In this document: in pieces, positions 28,694 to 37,633 of the stretch
Numbering within the stretch: the first letter of the stretch is position 1
Layout: each line of letters starts with the position of its first letter
Assembly (NCBI RefSeq): GCF_010093225.1
Contig: NZ_PDWM01000016.1
Coordinates: 1-60,800 of the forward strand
Direction: 5' to 3'
Length of the DNA: 60,800 bases
Source: Pseudoxanthomonas koreensis
GTDB lineage: Bacteria > Pseudomonadota > Gammaproteobacteria > Xanthomonadales > Xanthomonadaceae
Notes under the pieces: model-generated
The model's input: only the letters and a program-made list of their open reading frames with translations
What the model was told of the DNA's origin: nothing
The model's database searches: none
Translations under genes and position numbers: made by a program

Positions 28694-28808
28694 GCGATTC
28701 AATTGCCTGGCTGAGCGCCAGGATTTCCCGGCACACCCAGTCGAAGCCAAGACCGGACGCACGGTCAGGACGGCGGCTGCGCTGCAGCCACGCGAAGGGG
28801 TTACGCAT
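28503..28808 (-). CDS. Possible Cro-coupled small protein
   Basis: 101 residues, start overlapping the Cro stop by eight bases. The first ~50 residues look genuine: a basic stretch (LQRSRRPDR) and a coiled-coil (ALSQAIESLKAEVAAL). The rest lies antisense to the plus-strand gene and is low in coding character, so one of the two may be wrong or they compete. Confidence 0.4.
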   Translation of the reverse strand: MRNPFAWLQRSRRPDRASGLGFDWVCREILALSQAIESLKAEVAALRCRQVTEAVLRTRPASSDTCPCRTERPAEDRTQHPPSSEAMPPSGRQGSSGPGGS

Positions 28809-29040
28809 TGGCGTTCTCCTTGGGTTGGCCCGGGGCTGGGCCGAAGATCAGGCCGACGCGGCAGACTTCGCCGCTGGTGCCTCGCTCGATCTGAGTTGCC
28901 CACTCCGGCGTGTAACCGAGCTGGCCGTTCTCCCACTGCGACACGCGACTCTGGGAGACGGGCCTGCCGTAGCGGGAAAGTTGGGCGGCAAGCTCGACCT
29001 GGGACAGGCCCTTGTTCGTGCGATAGGTGCGAAGGTCCAT
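28801..29040 (-). CDS. Cro-like repressor (HTH_3)
   Basis: 79 residues. A helix-turn-helix of the Cro/CI class spans LSQVELAAQLSRYGRPVSQS and continues SRVSQWENGQ. It is the first gene read leftward from the divergent control region, so it is the lytic-side regulator. The ATG lies seven bases past the -10 box, giving a message with no leader. It faces the repressor gene across six-operator control DNA. Confidence 0.82.
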   Translation of the reverse strand: MDLRTYRTNKGLSQVELAAQLSRYGRPVSQSRVSQWENGQLGYTPEWATQIERGTSGEVCRVGLIFGPAPGQPKENANA

Positions 29041-29075
29041 GGGCGCATATTAGCGCCCCTAATCCACACATTCAA
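29041..29075 (-). promoter_or_regulatory. Early-left promoter (Cro promoter)
   Basis: On the minus strand -35 TTGAAT (29075-29070), a 17-base spacer and -10 TAATAT (29052-29047), then six bases to the Cro ATG. One operator covers the -10 and another the -35. Confidence 0.72.
29049..29063. promoter_or_regulatory. Repressor operator O1
   Basis: ATTAGCGCCCCTAAT, dyad ATTAG-N5-CTAAT, overlapping the -10 of the early-left promoter. Confidence 0.75.
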
Positions 29076-29088
29076 CAGGGGCGCTAAT
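29074..29088. promoter_or_regulatory. Repressor operator O2
   Basis: On the minus strand ATTAGCGCCCCTGTT, 25 bases from O1 on centre. It overlaps the -35 boxes of both divergent promoters. Confidence 0.72.
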
Positions 29089-29123
29089 TGAATTTGCCTA
29101 TCGCCAGAATTAGCGTTCCTGAT
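29088..29123 (+). promoter_or_regulatory. Repressor maintenance promoter
   Basis: -35 TTGAAT (29088-29093), 17-base spacer, weak -10 TAGCGT (29111-29116), then seven bases to the repressor ATG at 29124. Leaderless like lambda PRM. Confidence 0.5.
29109..29123. promoter_or_regulatory. Repressor operator O3
   Basis: ATTAGCGTTCCTGAT, abutting the repressor ATG and covering its -10 box; suited to autorepression. Confidence 0.65.
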
Positions 29124-29657
29124 ATGGCCGACAAGAAGTCAGACAGGTCCGCGAAGCCGACTCCGCTTGATAAGGAGACGGCCGAAACCCTCACGCGGCT
29201 ATGGAACGAGTACCGAAGGCAGAACCTATCGGCGAGCGGAAAGCCGCCGACCCAGGCGGTGCTGGCGGAAGCTACCGGCTACACGCAGAGTGCGATCAGC
29301 CAATACCTAAACGGGTACCTGAAGTTCGGCTACGGGGCGGTGCTGAAGTTCGCCAGGTTCTTCGGGGTGTCGCCATCGGAGATCCGCCCCGACCTGGACG
29401 CCTTACCCGACGCGCCCGGACAGGATACCGGCTTGCTGATCGCGAGGCTGGAGAACGACATCGACGCCCTCCAGTTCGCGCTGGGCGCCGTCCTTACTGT
29501 GATGGCTCGGCACCGACCAGCCGAAGCTGAGGAACTGGCCGCGCAGCTTGCGAAGGTGCCTGCGAAGTTCCAGGACCGGGGCCTTGTGCCGGCACTGCAG
29601 CAAGCCTTGGGGCAGAAGGCGCCCGCGAAAAAGGCAGCGGGGCGCGCCGCCGCTTAG
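29124..29657 (+). CDS. Lysogeny repressor (CI-like, HTH only)
   Basis: 177 residues from ATG 29124; a TTG at 29088 is in frame but would place the operator inside the gene. The helix-turn-helix is TQAVLAEATGYTQSAISQYL, followed by FARFFGVSPSEIRPDL as in XRE-type repressors. A helical region (LIARLENDIDALQFALGAV) may dimerise. There is no S24/LexA peptidase domain, so classic RecA-stimulated self-cleavage is not expected. The C-terminus is Ala/Lys-rich. It should bind the ATTAG operators and silence both early promoters. Confidence 0.8.
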   Translation: MADKKSDRSAKPTPLDKETAETLTRLWNEYRRQNLSASGKPPTQAVLAEATGYTQSAISQYLNGYLKFGYGAVLKFARFFGVSPSEIRPDLDALPDAPGQDTGLLIARLENDIDALQFALGAVLTVMARHRPAEAEELAAQLAKVPAKFQDRGLVPALQQALGQKAPAKKAAGRAAA

Positions 29658-29724
29658 CAGCCCTAAGCTCCTGAATCTGTTGGCAGAAGGCAACAAAGGG
29701 GTCTTCGGTATCGTGGTTTGCCAT
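29494..29724 (-). CDS. Possible antisense small gene over the repressor 3' end
   Basis: 76 residues with AGGGAGGG six bases before the ATG. The first ~29 residues (NHDTEDPFVAFCQQIQELRA) look protein-like; the rest lies opposite the repressor gene and is probably constrained by it. May be a shadow. Confidence 0.25.
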   Translation of the reverse strand: MANHDTEDPFVAFCQQIQELRAAKRRRAPLPFSRAPSAPRLAAVPAQGPGPGTSQAPSQAARPVPQLRLVGAEPSQ

Positions 29725-29786
29725 GGTGCCCTCCCTGTGGGGCCATCATCCAAGCCGGTTGGCGCAGAAGCTGAGACGGAGGAAAC

Positions 29787-30269
29787 ATGCGCGTACTTGT
29801 GATCGCTGGAGCCATCCTTGCCTCAGGCGCAGCCGCCGCCCAAGGGCAAGCGCCCTATTGCCTGCATAGCAACGCGGGGCCCGTCCTATGCCAGTACCAC
29901 ACTGTGGGACAGTGCGGATCGGCAGCGCGGACCCTTGGGGGCATGTGTGCACCCAATACCGGCGTTCAGCAGCGCCAGCAAATCCAGCTACAGACGGTGC
30001 CGCAGGTGAGCCCCCTCGCGGGGTATGAGTACGTGCGGGCGCAAGGCGAGGCCGGCGCGCGACGGGCAAGAGAGGAACAGGAGCATCGCGCCAGGATGGA
30101 ACTGCTCCAGGCGCAAACGCAGGCTGCGCAAGCTCCGGTCTACATGGGCAGCCCAGAGCCCGCGCCCGCTGGCAAGCGCGTTCTCTATAGCTGTCGGACC
30201 AGCGAAGGGAAAGAGAACATCACCGAGCAGCCATTCGTCGGTTGCATGGTCTACAGCGTAAGTGACTGA
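29787..30269 (+). CDS. Secreted Cys-rich protein (DUF3551-like), possible lysogenic-conversion gene
   Basis: 160 residues. A signal peptide (MRVLVIAGAILASGAAAAQG) leads into YCLHSNAGPVLCQYHTVGQC and GGMCAPN, a pattern like DUF3551 secreted proteins. A helical Gln-rich segment and a second Cys pair follow. It lies just downstream of, and in the same direction as, the repressor gene, so it may be expressed in lysogens. Function unknown. Confidence 0.55.
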   Translation: MRVLVIAGAILASGAAAAQGQAPYCLHSNAGPVLCQYHTVGQCGSAARTLGGMCAPNTGVQQRQQIQLQTVPQVSPLAGYEYVRAQGEAGARRAREEQEHRARMELLQAQTQAAQAPVYMGSPEPAPAGKRVLYSCRTSEGKENITEQPFVGCMVYSVSD

Positions 30270-30279
30270 TCCGTCGCTT

Positions 30280-30294
30280 ATTCGCGCCCCTAAT
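30280..30294. promoter_or_regulatory. Repressor operator O4
   Basis: ATTCGCGCCCCTAAT, one base from O1, ten bases after the secreted-protein stop and 68 bases upstream of O5 on centre. Confidence 0.65.
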
Positions 30295-30347
30295 AGCCCT
30301 TGACTATCGGCCCAGCAGGGTTCGATTGAAACAATCCTCGAAGAAAT

Positions 30348-30362
30348 ATTAGCGCCCCTGTT
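30348..30362. promoter_or_regulatory. Repressor operator O5
   Basis: ATTAGCGCCCCTGTT, identical to O2, touching the -35 of the early-right promoter. Confidence 0.72.
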
Positions 30363-30395
30363 GCTTTAAGAAATAAGGGCCGCTAATCTACTCCC
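30361..30395 (+). promoter_or_regulatory. Early-right promoter
   Basis: -35 TTGCTT (30361-30366), 17-base spacer, -10 TAATCT (30384-30389). Same architecture as the early-left promoter. The predicted transcript starts near 30396 and leads to the first gene at 30428, preceded by GGGAGAATGAG. Confidence 0.65.
30373..30387. promoter_or_regulatory. Repressor operator O6
   Basis: ATAAGGGCCGCTAAT, 25 bases from O5 on centre, overlapping the -10 box. Confidence 0.62.
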
Positions 30396-30427
30396 ATGCC
30401 CCCACCACGGCGGGCAGGGAGAATGAG

Positions 30428-31297
30428 ATGGCCGCTCGCAAGACCAAGACCGCCGAAGCCACCGGCGAAGTCATCCAGACCTACAAGGGCTTCGGCCTGG
30501 ACTGGAAGTGTCGTGATTTCCAGTTCGAGGTCGGCGGGGAGTACGAGCTGGCCGGTGAAGTGGCCGCGTGCAAGGCCGGCTTCCACGCCTGCGAATACCC
30601 GCTGGACGTGCTGAGCTACTACCCGCCGGGCACGAGCCGCTACGCACTGGTCGAGCAATCCGGCGACCTGAGCCGCCACAGCGGCGACTCCAAGGTCGCC
30701 AGCCGGCGCATCAAGGTCGTCGCGGAAATCGGCATCCCGGGGCTGGTCAAGGCGGCTGTCGAGTACACCTTCAAGCGTGCCACGCCGAGCAATACGTCGG
30801 TGGCCACGGCTGAGCGCGAGAGCGCCAGCGCGACGGGCTACCGGGGCGCGGCCAGCGCGACGGGCGACCAGGGCGCGGCCAGCGCGACGGGCGACCGGGG
30901 CGCGGCCAGCGCGACGGGCAACTGGGGCGCGGCCAGCGCGACGGGCTACCAGGGCGCGGCCAGCGCGACGGGCTACCGGGGCGCGGCCAGCGCGACGGGC
31001 GACCAGGGCGCGGCCAGCGCGACGGGCGACCGGGGCGCGGCCAGCGCGACGGGCAACTGGGGCGCGGCCAGCGCGACGGGCTACCGGGGCGCGGCCAGCG
31101 CGACGGGCAACTGGGGCGCGGCCATGTCATCCGGCTATGCCGGCAAGGTCATGGGCAAGGATGGCAATGCCCTGTTCCTTGTCGAGCGCAACGACGACTA
31201 CGAAATCATCGCAACGTGGGCGGGTATCGCGGGCCGGGACGGGATCAAGGCCGATACGTGGTACACGCTACGCGGCGGCGTGCCGGTGGAGGCCTGA
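30428..31297 (+). CDS. Repeat-solenoid protein with DUF7666-like N-terminus
   Basis: 289 residues, first gene of the early-right operon. The N-terminal ~115 residues ([42 protein letters not shown]) match a phage domain that accompanies such repeats. Residues ~132-232 are 11 near-identical nine-residue repeats GAASATGxx, where xx is YR, DQ, DR, NW or YQ. A ~50-residue C-terminal cap follows ([25 protein letters not shown]). The repeats probably fold as a beta-solenoid. Function unknown; strong early expression suggests a host-takeover or defence-related role. Confidence 0.65.
30824..31123 (+). repeat. 27-bp tandem repeat array inside the solenoid gene
   Basis: About 11 units with consensus GCCAGCGCGACGGGC plus two variable codons and GGCGCG. 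A four-unit block (YR-DQ-DR-NW) occurs twice, showing recent block duplication. Copy number is likely unstable. Confidence 0.9.
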
Positions 31298-31645: not shown

Positions 31646-32451
31646 CCGCCAAGAAGCCGGAAATCATCGAAATCCGCAGCCGCTACACGGATGCCGTCCT
31701 GTTCAAGTGGGAGTGCGACCCGGAAGTCACCGGGCTAACCGTGGGCGAAAAGCTGGGGCGGGCTGTGCTGGCGGCGGTTGAGGCCCGCGCCGACCTGAGC
31801 TGCGCCAACCTGAGCTGCGCCTACCTGAGCGGCGCCGACCTGAGCGGCGCCAACCTGAGCTGCGCCTACCTGAGCGGCGCCAACCTGAGCTGCGCCTACC
31901 TGAGCGGCGCCAACCTGAGCTGCGCCAACCTGAGCTGCGCCTACCTGAGCGGCGCCGACCTGAGCGGCGCCGACCTGAGCGGCGCCAACCTGAGCGGCGC
32001 CGACCTGAGCGGCGCCGACCTGAGCGGCGCCGACCTGAGCTGCGCCAACCTGAGCGGCGCCGACCTGAGCGGCGCCAACCTGAGCGGCGCCGACCTGAGC
32101 GGCGCCAACCTGAGCGGCGCCAAGGGCGCCGACTACGCCATCGCGCAGACCCGCATCCTGCCGGAAGGCTCGCTGATCGGCTGGAAAAAGTGCAACGGCG
32201 GCGTGACCGTGAAGCTGCGCATCCCCGAGGGCGCCAAGCGCTCGCACGCCTTCGGCCGCAAGTGCCGGGCCGAGTACGTCGAAGTCCTGGAGGTGATCGG
32301 GGCCGAGGTCGGCATCAGCTCGCACGACGGCAAGACGGAATACCGCGTCGGCGAGACGGTCCGCCCGGATTCGTGGAGCGACGACTGGCAGACGGAGTGC
32401 GCCAACGGAATCCATTTCTTCATTACCCGGCTGGAGGCCGAAAACTACTAA
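31642..32451 (+). CDS. Pentapeptide-repeat protein with DUF5758-like C-terminus
   Basis: 269 residues from ATG overlapping the previous stop (ATGA). After a ~48-residue lead, 22 perfect pentapeptides A(D/N/Y)LS(G/C) form a right-handed quadrilateral beta-helix. The C-terminal ~110 residues ([51 protein letters not shown]) match the domain that caps phage pentapeptide proteins. Pentapeptide helices can mimic DNA and bind gyrase, but no specific partner is indicated here. Confidence 0.82.
31789..32118 (+). repeat. 15-bp tandem repeat array encoding the pentapeptides
   Basis: Exactly 22 units of GCC-(GAC/AAC/TAC)-CTGAGC-(GGC/TGC). Codon identity is perfect outside two variable positions, so the array has been homogenised recently. 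Confidence 0.92.
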
Positions 32452-37548: not shown

Positions 37549-37633
37549 TGGTGCCCAAGAGGGGACTCGAACCCCTACGACTCTCGTCGCTACCACCTCA
37601 AGGTAGTGCGTCTACCAATTCCGCCACCTGGGC
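37549..37633 (-). tRNA. tRNA-Leu(GAG)
   Basis: 85 bases with CCA encoded. The acceptor stem GCCCAGG pairs with the 3' end, the anticodon stem CTACC/GGTAG holds loop TTGAGGT with anticodon GAG, there is a long variable arm (CGACGAGAGUCG type) as in class II tRNAs, and the T-loop is GTTCGAGTC. It reads CUC/CUU. It is intact and serves as the phage attachment gene. Confidence 0.95.

Follow-up and report, generated by a model that had tools for sequence, protein, structure and literature searches.

In phage lambda, the gene for the CI repressor lies between the operator regions OL and OR; the divergent lytic promoters carry operators at their −35 and −10 elements, and a third site sits on the promoter of the repressor gene. 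The window considered here, the whole stretch of 60,800 nucleotides from Pseudoxanthomonas koreensis that was analysed, contains a phage region in which a repressor gene is likewise found between two operator clusters, with operators at the −35 and −10 of divergent predicted lytic promoters, a third site on the presumed repressor promoter, a gene in the rex position, and an HTH profile that matches the N-domain of CI. The initial annotation had drawn an analogy to lambda OL/OR with unrelated sequence, and this was borne out, since two operator clusters flank the repressor gene, each over a predicted lytic promoter. The locus differs from lambda in its mirror orientation, its operator sequence, the lack of an S24 domain in the repressor, an apparently leaderless cro start, and a gene lying antisense across the repressor end. 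The predicted operator arrangement is a new variant of the lambda-type region; what was unexpected is the apparent exchange of repressor C-termini on constant operators, together with a conserved candidate gene on the opposite strand.

Other described systems resemble parts of this locus. The telomere phages N15, phiKO2, and PY54 differ from the window in operators and hosts; for PY54, leaderless cI and cro messages have been mapped (PMC4488713). Small proteins that inactivate a repressor without cleavage are described for Gifsy GfoR/GfoA (PMC3121763) and for cI72/smORF72 of a Vibrio phage, where the smORF is activated by a divergent transcription factor and phage 72 is also SOS-induced (PMC10432266). 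The logic of these antirepressor systems is possibly shared here, with the difference that the window's candidate gene overlaps the repressor gene in antisense. In the B3-like (Mu-like) Pseudomonas phage Fc02, the small genes olg1 and olg2 lie opposite other genes in the regulatory region, overlapping gene 10 and part of a ner-like gene, and olg1 has exclusion activity (PMC9936078); the likeness to the window is that of small antisense genes in a phage regulatory region.

The window phage encodes a P22-type portal, terminase, and major head protein, and has a DnaB-type helicase gene leftward and an Erf-type gene rightward. A tRNA-Leu(gag) gene at 37549–37633 (minus) is a possible attachment site. 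The genes adjoining the two clusters are as follows.

28801..29040, minus strand: Cro-like HTH protein, 79 aa; HTH_31 and HTH_3 above Pfam cut-offs
29124..29657, plus strand: repressor, 177 aa; lambda-CI-like HTH at ~43–87 and novel helical C-terminal domain at ~100–165
29787..30269, plus strand: 160-aa protein with N-terminal hydrophobic stretch, DUF3551-like (Pfam 4.8e-6), in the lambda rex position
30428..31297, plus strand: first rightward early gene, DUF7666 and collagen-like repeats (Pfam 1.4e-34; phrog_4433 1.5e-89)

Small secreted-, lipoprotein-, or membrane-like ORFs, mutually unlike by eye, hold the rex position in L060 (5366–5895), L061 (5365–6131), L064 (5358–5654), and L065 (5402–5821), which are relatives introduced below; none was seen in L058, L059, L062, and L063, and the position is possibly a cargo slot. 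Downstream of promoter 2, 27-bp coding repeats occur at 30800–31120 and 31780–32000, in the DUF7666/collagen-like gene and in a pentapeptide-repeat-like gene.

Operators and divergent promoters

The sites and promoters of the two clusters are given first.

29049–29063, no strand: O1, ATTAGCGCCCCTAAT, at the −10 of promoter 1
29074–29088, no strand: O2, reverse complement ATTAGCGCCCCTGTT, at the −35 of promoter 1
29109–29123, no strand: O3, ATTAGCGTTCCTGAT, abutting the repressor ATG and containing the presumed PRM −10
30280–30294, no strand: O4, ATTCGCGCCCCTAAT, an extra site 68 bp upstream of O5 and module 2
30348–30362, no strand: O5, ATTAGCGCCCCTGTT, at the −35 of promoter 2
30373–30387, no strand: O6, reverse complement ATTAGCGGCCCTTAT, at the −10 of promoter 2
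29047..29075, minus strand: promoter 1, leftward; −35 TTGAAT (29075–29070), 17 bp, −10 TAATAT (29052–29047); design common to relatives
30361..30389, plus strand: promoter 2, rightward; −35 TTGCTT (30361–30366), 17 bp, −10 TAATCT (30384–30389)

The six 15-bp sites in two clusters claimed by the initial annotation have exact coordinates and a count far above chance: 6 sites against a mean of 0.175 and a maximum of 2 in 1000 dinucleotide shuffles, allowing up to two mismatches to ATTAGN5CTAAT. The identity claimed for O2 and O5 is likewise real when O2 is read as its reverse complement. At the same stringency, 29041–30396 holds 7 matches (shuffle mean 0.213, maximum 3), and the entire window also 7 (mean 1.95, maximum 6 in 100 shuffles); the seventh, at 29653–29667 on the repressor stop codon, is probably due to chance. 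The strict pattern ATTAGNGNYCCTNNT matches five times in the entire genome that carries the window, all five within this region, and the operator letters had no occurrence in the open-access PMC literature. Centre-to-centre spacings are 25 for O1–O2, 25 for O5–O6, and 35 for O2–O3.

Relatives were collected by the repressor C-terminal domain. Scans of IMG/VR gave eight contigs with this domain. In 398 genomes of the order, one locus was added (G615, L106), as well as L105, which has the same sequence as L062 and was dropped; weak C-terminal matches appeared in four further genomes (L101–L104). Among 395 genomes of the family (three-row profile) and 369 of the class, the window alone was recovered, and full-length and three-row searches of genome contigs gave no direct relatives. 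GenBank phages yielded no DNA match and, by protein, three HTH-level matches.

Module 1 and module 2, each a promoter with its operator pair, are present in all ten phages or presumed prophages with the window C-terminus. For nine of these the register was set by eye, so that the hexamers are an alignment rather than a measurement; for L106, module 2 was placed by script and module 1 by eye (the string then being located), a promoter-like scan having found module 2 and missed module 1. The −35 starts with TTG in 17 of the 18 modules of the nine phages, and an operator distance (d) of 25 goes with a spacer of 17 in 16 of 18. The exceptions shift jointly (L062, d 24 and spacer 16; L058, d 27 and spacer 19), which ties operator spacing to promoter geometry. 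Read by eye, the operators are TAGC/GCTA-like in most of the ten and TACC/GGTA-like in L058 and L060. A statistic for half-sites, computed de novo, recovered TAGC-N3-GCTA in 6/9 phages and TACC-N4-GGTA in L058 (20 shuffles each); it gave another motif in L060, the largest shuffle equaled the observed value in L059 and L064, and the window itself was without signal (2 vs a shuffle mean of 2.8; 20 shuffles). A blind pair scan placed both modules among its top five in L058, L060, L062, and L063 and module 2 alone in L061 and L064; the modules of the window, where protein repeats won, and of L059 and L065 fell outside the top five and were aligned by eye afterwards.

The promoter architecture of the initial annotation (a TTG-type −35, a 17-base spacer, a TAAT-starting −10, and a site pair 25 bp apart) was found in both modules, and an assignment of promoters 1 and 2 as divergent early promoters with paired operators is supported. 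The operators do not, however, cover the hexamers as that annotation had it: they reach only the first 1–2 bases of each −35 and the opening bases of each −10. The figure of 51 bases given for both modules is correct as a count, yet in module 2 it is measured to the ATG at 30396, which is not conserved and has a counterpart in none of the other eight module 2 sequences. An ATG lies 6 bases past the −10 in 7/9 phages in module 1 (with one more at 7) and in 1/9 in module 2, where relatives have a likely start codon ~27–45 nt past the −10, often after a purine-rich stretch; the rightward gene of the window likely starts at 30428, behind GGGAG. Leader structure at module 2, for which 6/9 sequences were supplied, gave no pairs.

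In module 1, the ATG in question is that of cro, 6 nt past the −10 in the window and 6–7 nt in 8/9 phages; in L060 (4640–4716), both modules are present, but the next ATG is 20 nt past the −10 of promoter 1. The cro and repressor messages are probably leaderless. For the repressor, we place the PRM −10 at TAGCGT (29111–29116), within O3, and no convincing −35 was seen for this presumed promoter. A site at the repressor start is found in 9/10 phages with this C-terminus, L058 being without O3; the O2–O3 distance is 35 bp in 7/9 and 36 in 1/9, and absent in L058. The repressor-start site of L060 and L065, TAGCATTGCTA, is unlike their other four sites, and O3 may be kept for promoter reasons or be bound with another specificity.

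The initial annotation also suggested duplication of the promoter module and perhaps repressor looping between the clusters; the duplication is not supported. The identity of O2 and O5 speaks for this reading, as does the distance of 1.3 kb between the clusters, which recalls the two sets of three operators ~2.3 kb apart in lambda (PMC5880393). Within phages, the two modules are more alike than between phages at operator positions (identity 0.82 vs 0.63; 0 of 2000 permutations as high) and weakly so at non-operator positions (0.42 vs 0.33, p 0.02), the latter also in favour of duplication, in a comparison that covers 7/9 phages, two having been dropped for unequal spacers. But the likeness lies mainly at operator positions, where a single repressor serving both modules can account for it. 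Both modules occur throughout the ten phages, which makes the layout an old one. The equality of 51 bp depends on the unconserved ATG, and the distance between modules ranges from 767 to 2654.5 bp with no helical phasing (Rayleigh p 0.70, n 27). We thus consider recent duplication together with looping improbable, though looping on its own may occur.

Exchange of the repressor C-terminus on one operator class

The initial assignment of the 177-aa protein as repressor is likely correct: its N-terminal part matches Pfam HTH_3 (2.7e-8), and lambda CI (1rio_A, 2.1e-4) is among the PDB matches of the repressor-family profile A4, the best of which is another HTH protein (3bs3_A, 9.6e-5). These PDB matches are restricted to the HTH half. 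The C-terminus had no convincing match in Pfam or PHROG (best 0.042 and 0.014, single members), and no S24 match to the window repressor appeared in Pfam at a limit of 0.1. In the structure model (pLDDT 80.4, pTM 0.47), a long helix at 102–130 is followed by shorter helices. The SaPI repressor Stl, which is derepressed by dUTPase, was matched by Foldseek in structures solved with dUTPases (~140–160 columns, E 0.016 at best, TM 0.3–0.4, rmsd ~16), and the shared combination of an HTH with a helical region is a lead only. Of the features that mark a lambda-type region, the window has a repressor N-domain of the lambda CI type and an adjoining divergent Cro-like gene; a LexA/S24 autoprotease domain is absent from its repressor but present in those of G044 and L072.

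The initial annotation had proposed a search of related prophages for the same 15-mer. The operators differ among the ten phages with this C-terminus; a window-type pair was found in 30 viral stretches, on 29 contigs, by a scan that used DNA only. An HTH relative is encoded in 23 of the 30, against none of 33 unrelated controls (one control had an S24 relative); these 23 loci include several close relatives and are not 23 independent events. The remaining seven comprise one piece of a contig already counted, one with Cro alone, one with an S24 end alone, and four with none of these. In L071 and L075, where no HTH relative was found, another ATTAGN5CTAAT site lies 7.46 kb from the window-type pair. 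From another genus of the family, G044 has five sites of the window operator class, spaced by 24, 35, and 25, and a repressor whose HTH is 42% identical over residues 2–92 but whose C-terminus is Peptidase_S24 (6.7e-10).

An S24 end was found in 21 of the 23 repressors (20 by tblastn, L072 by Pfam); the remaining two, those of L078 and L089, end differently and are short there. Adding G044 and the window to the 23 gives 25 loci, of which 21 have O1–O2 at 24–25, O2–O3 at 35, and O3 touching the ATG, the other four having fewer sites or being cut; the downstream operator pair is present in 22 of 25, the window included. The S24-type loci (G044/L066 and most of L068–L097) thus agree with the window in operators, in O1-O2-O3 layout, and in a Cro relative beside the same operators (Cro relatives that adjoin them are 40–51% identical), and differ in the S24 repressor end and in having no clear antisense gene. 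One HTH/operator class is thereby paired, as far as sequence can tell, with at least three kinds of C-terminus; the putative operators belong to the HTH, and the C-terminal domain is a predicted exchangeable effector, swapped between phages.

A candidate gene antisense to the repressor

The overlapping frame and an element upstream of it are located as follows.

29494..29724, minus strand: antisense gene, 76 codons, ends PQLRLVGAEPSQ; overlaps the repressor 3′ end except for its first 22 codons
29762..29777, minus strand: element GTCTCAN5TGCGA, 16 bp, here with 1 mismatch; lies upstream of the antisense gene

Each of the ten phages that share this C-terminus has the frame uninterrupted and begun by an ATG. 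It starts 46–97 nt beyond the repressor stop, so that its first 15–32 codons are outside the overlap, mostly behind an AGGAGG- or AGGGGG-like sequence (L058 excepted), and the N-terminal part of the protein is similar in the ten. A profile of nine found the tenth (L106) at 2.1e-23. In 198 genomes of the family, the profile matched the window and, weakly, G179 (9.5e-4, interrupted by one stop). Against 31 stretches of the operator class (the 30 and L066, some of them short or cut), there was no clear match, the best E being 0.06; the S24-type L093 and L072 gave 0.062 and 0.09 in this search and 0.17 and 0.25 in a larger one. A match to L051 (0.0039) was read as chance. The model of the antisense protein is a single helix with a low-confidence tail, and no sigma-70 promoter for the gene was seen by eye. 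In 7/9 phages, GTCTCAN5TGCGA shares the strand of the antisense gene and is 37–43 nt away from its start (at most two mismatches; that of L106 was placed by hand); it is a possible control site. Nothing on this antisense gene or on these operators was found in the open-access PMC literature.

Inside the repressor gene, CAYCGACCAGCCGAAGC is common to the window, L001, L002, and L012, all phages found without use of CAYCGACCAGCCGAAGC DNA, and one or a few bases differ in L061, L062, and L106. Read in sense it gives HRPAEA, and in the antisense frame LRLV (LRVV in L061, LQLV in L106); a second LRLV-like motif is present in the antisense ORF of some relatives. Relative to synonymous recoding, the R, P, A, and E positions have raised codon identity (z 6.0 to 9.1), and the residues directly beside them do not; in the same test, one E 20 residues upstream gave z 3.5 (p 0.035). 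Within the short block, z is 12.0 for the codon-aligned antisense frame vs 8.3 for the LRLV frame, and because this second antisense frame scores higher, the recoding test alone cannot separate coding from a DNA signal.

The antisense ORF could then be a by-product of GC-rich coding DNA and the 12 conserved bases a DNA or RNA signal rather than part of a gene, as the higher score of the other frame and the long, open further antisense frames of some phages would suggest. We nonetheless give this reading little credence: the ATG-started frame is open in every one of the ten, with an AGGAGG- or AGGGGG-like sequence before most (not L058), the likeness of its N-terminal part extends to codons beyond the overlap, and a phage independent of the profile was matched by it. 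If it is a gene, its product is possibly an antirepressor, a role suggested by its co-occurrence with the C-terminus and its overlap with the repressor gene.

A proposed switch and its implications

The sites, the promoter-like hexamers, their layout, the link between HTH and operator class, and the domain swap are features read directly from the DNA, and we regard it as highly probable that together they form a lambda-type immunity region in which O1/O2 and O5/O6 would be repressor-bound, O3 would be autoregulatory, and the C-terminal effector would be exchangeable. Because a Cro-like protein and the repressor co-occur, sequence cannot assign either one to given sites; that the sites are mainly Cro operators, with the 177-aa protein acting elsewhere or at O3 alone, is nevertheless very unlikely, for although conservation of the Cro-like protein beside these operators equals or exceeds that of the repressor HTH, and O3 of L060 and L065 is unlike their other sites, the operator class goes with a repressor HTH whose C-terminus is of at least three kinds, and in lambda Cro and CI share their sites.

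In the lambda-type region as we envision it, binding, repression, the leaderless start, and the route of induction are predictions. In a lysogen, the 177-aa repressor would bind O1/O2 and O5/O6 and shut both divergent early promoters, since each operator pair sits at a −35 and a −10; the genes silenced would be the cro-like and helicase genes leftward and the DUF7666 and Erf-type genes rightward. O3, which lies on the promoter of the repressor gene and abuts the repressor start codon, would serve as the site of autoregulation and of the Cro switch, like OR3. Paired-operator repression, autoregulation at O3, and competition by Cro are suggested by this anatomy and by analogy to lambda. Because the repressor has no S24 peptidase, RecA-stimulated cleavage is unlikely and another route of inactivation would be needed, for which the antisense gene is the best candidate: it accompanies this C-terminus, and its transcription would oppose that of the repressor. 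We put forward only tentatively, as a rather doubtful extension, that one operator class carries exchanged induction modules, an S24 autoprotease in some phages versus a helical sensor in others, the latter with an antisense antirepressor that would lower repressor transcription and also inactivate the protein.

These loci offer natural repressors that would be expected to share operators yet differ in how they are switched off, making the specificity of immunity separable from the route of induction, and the phages described here may present a ten-member case of a gene apparently conserved antisense to a phage repressor gene. We further predict that the window phage is cross-immune with S24-type phages that belong to its operator class.
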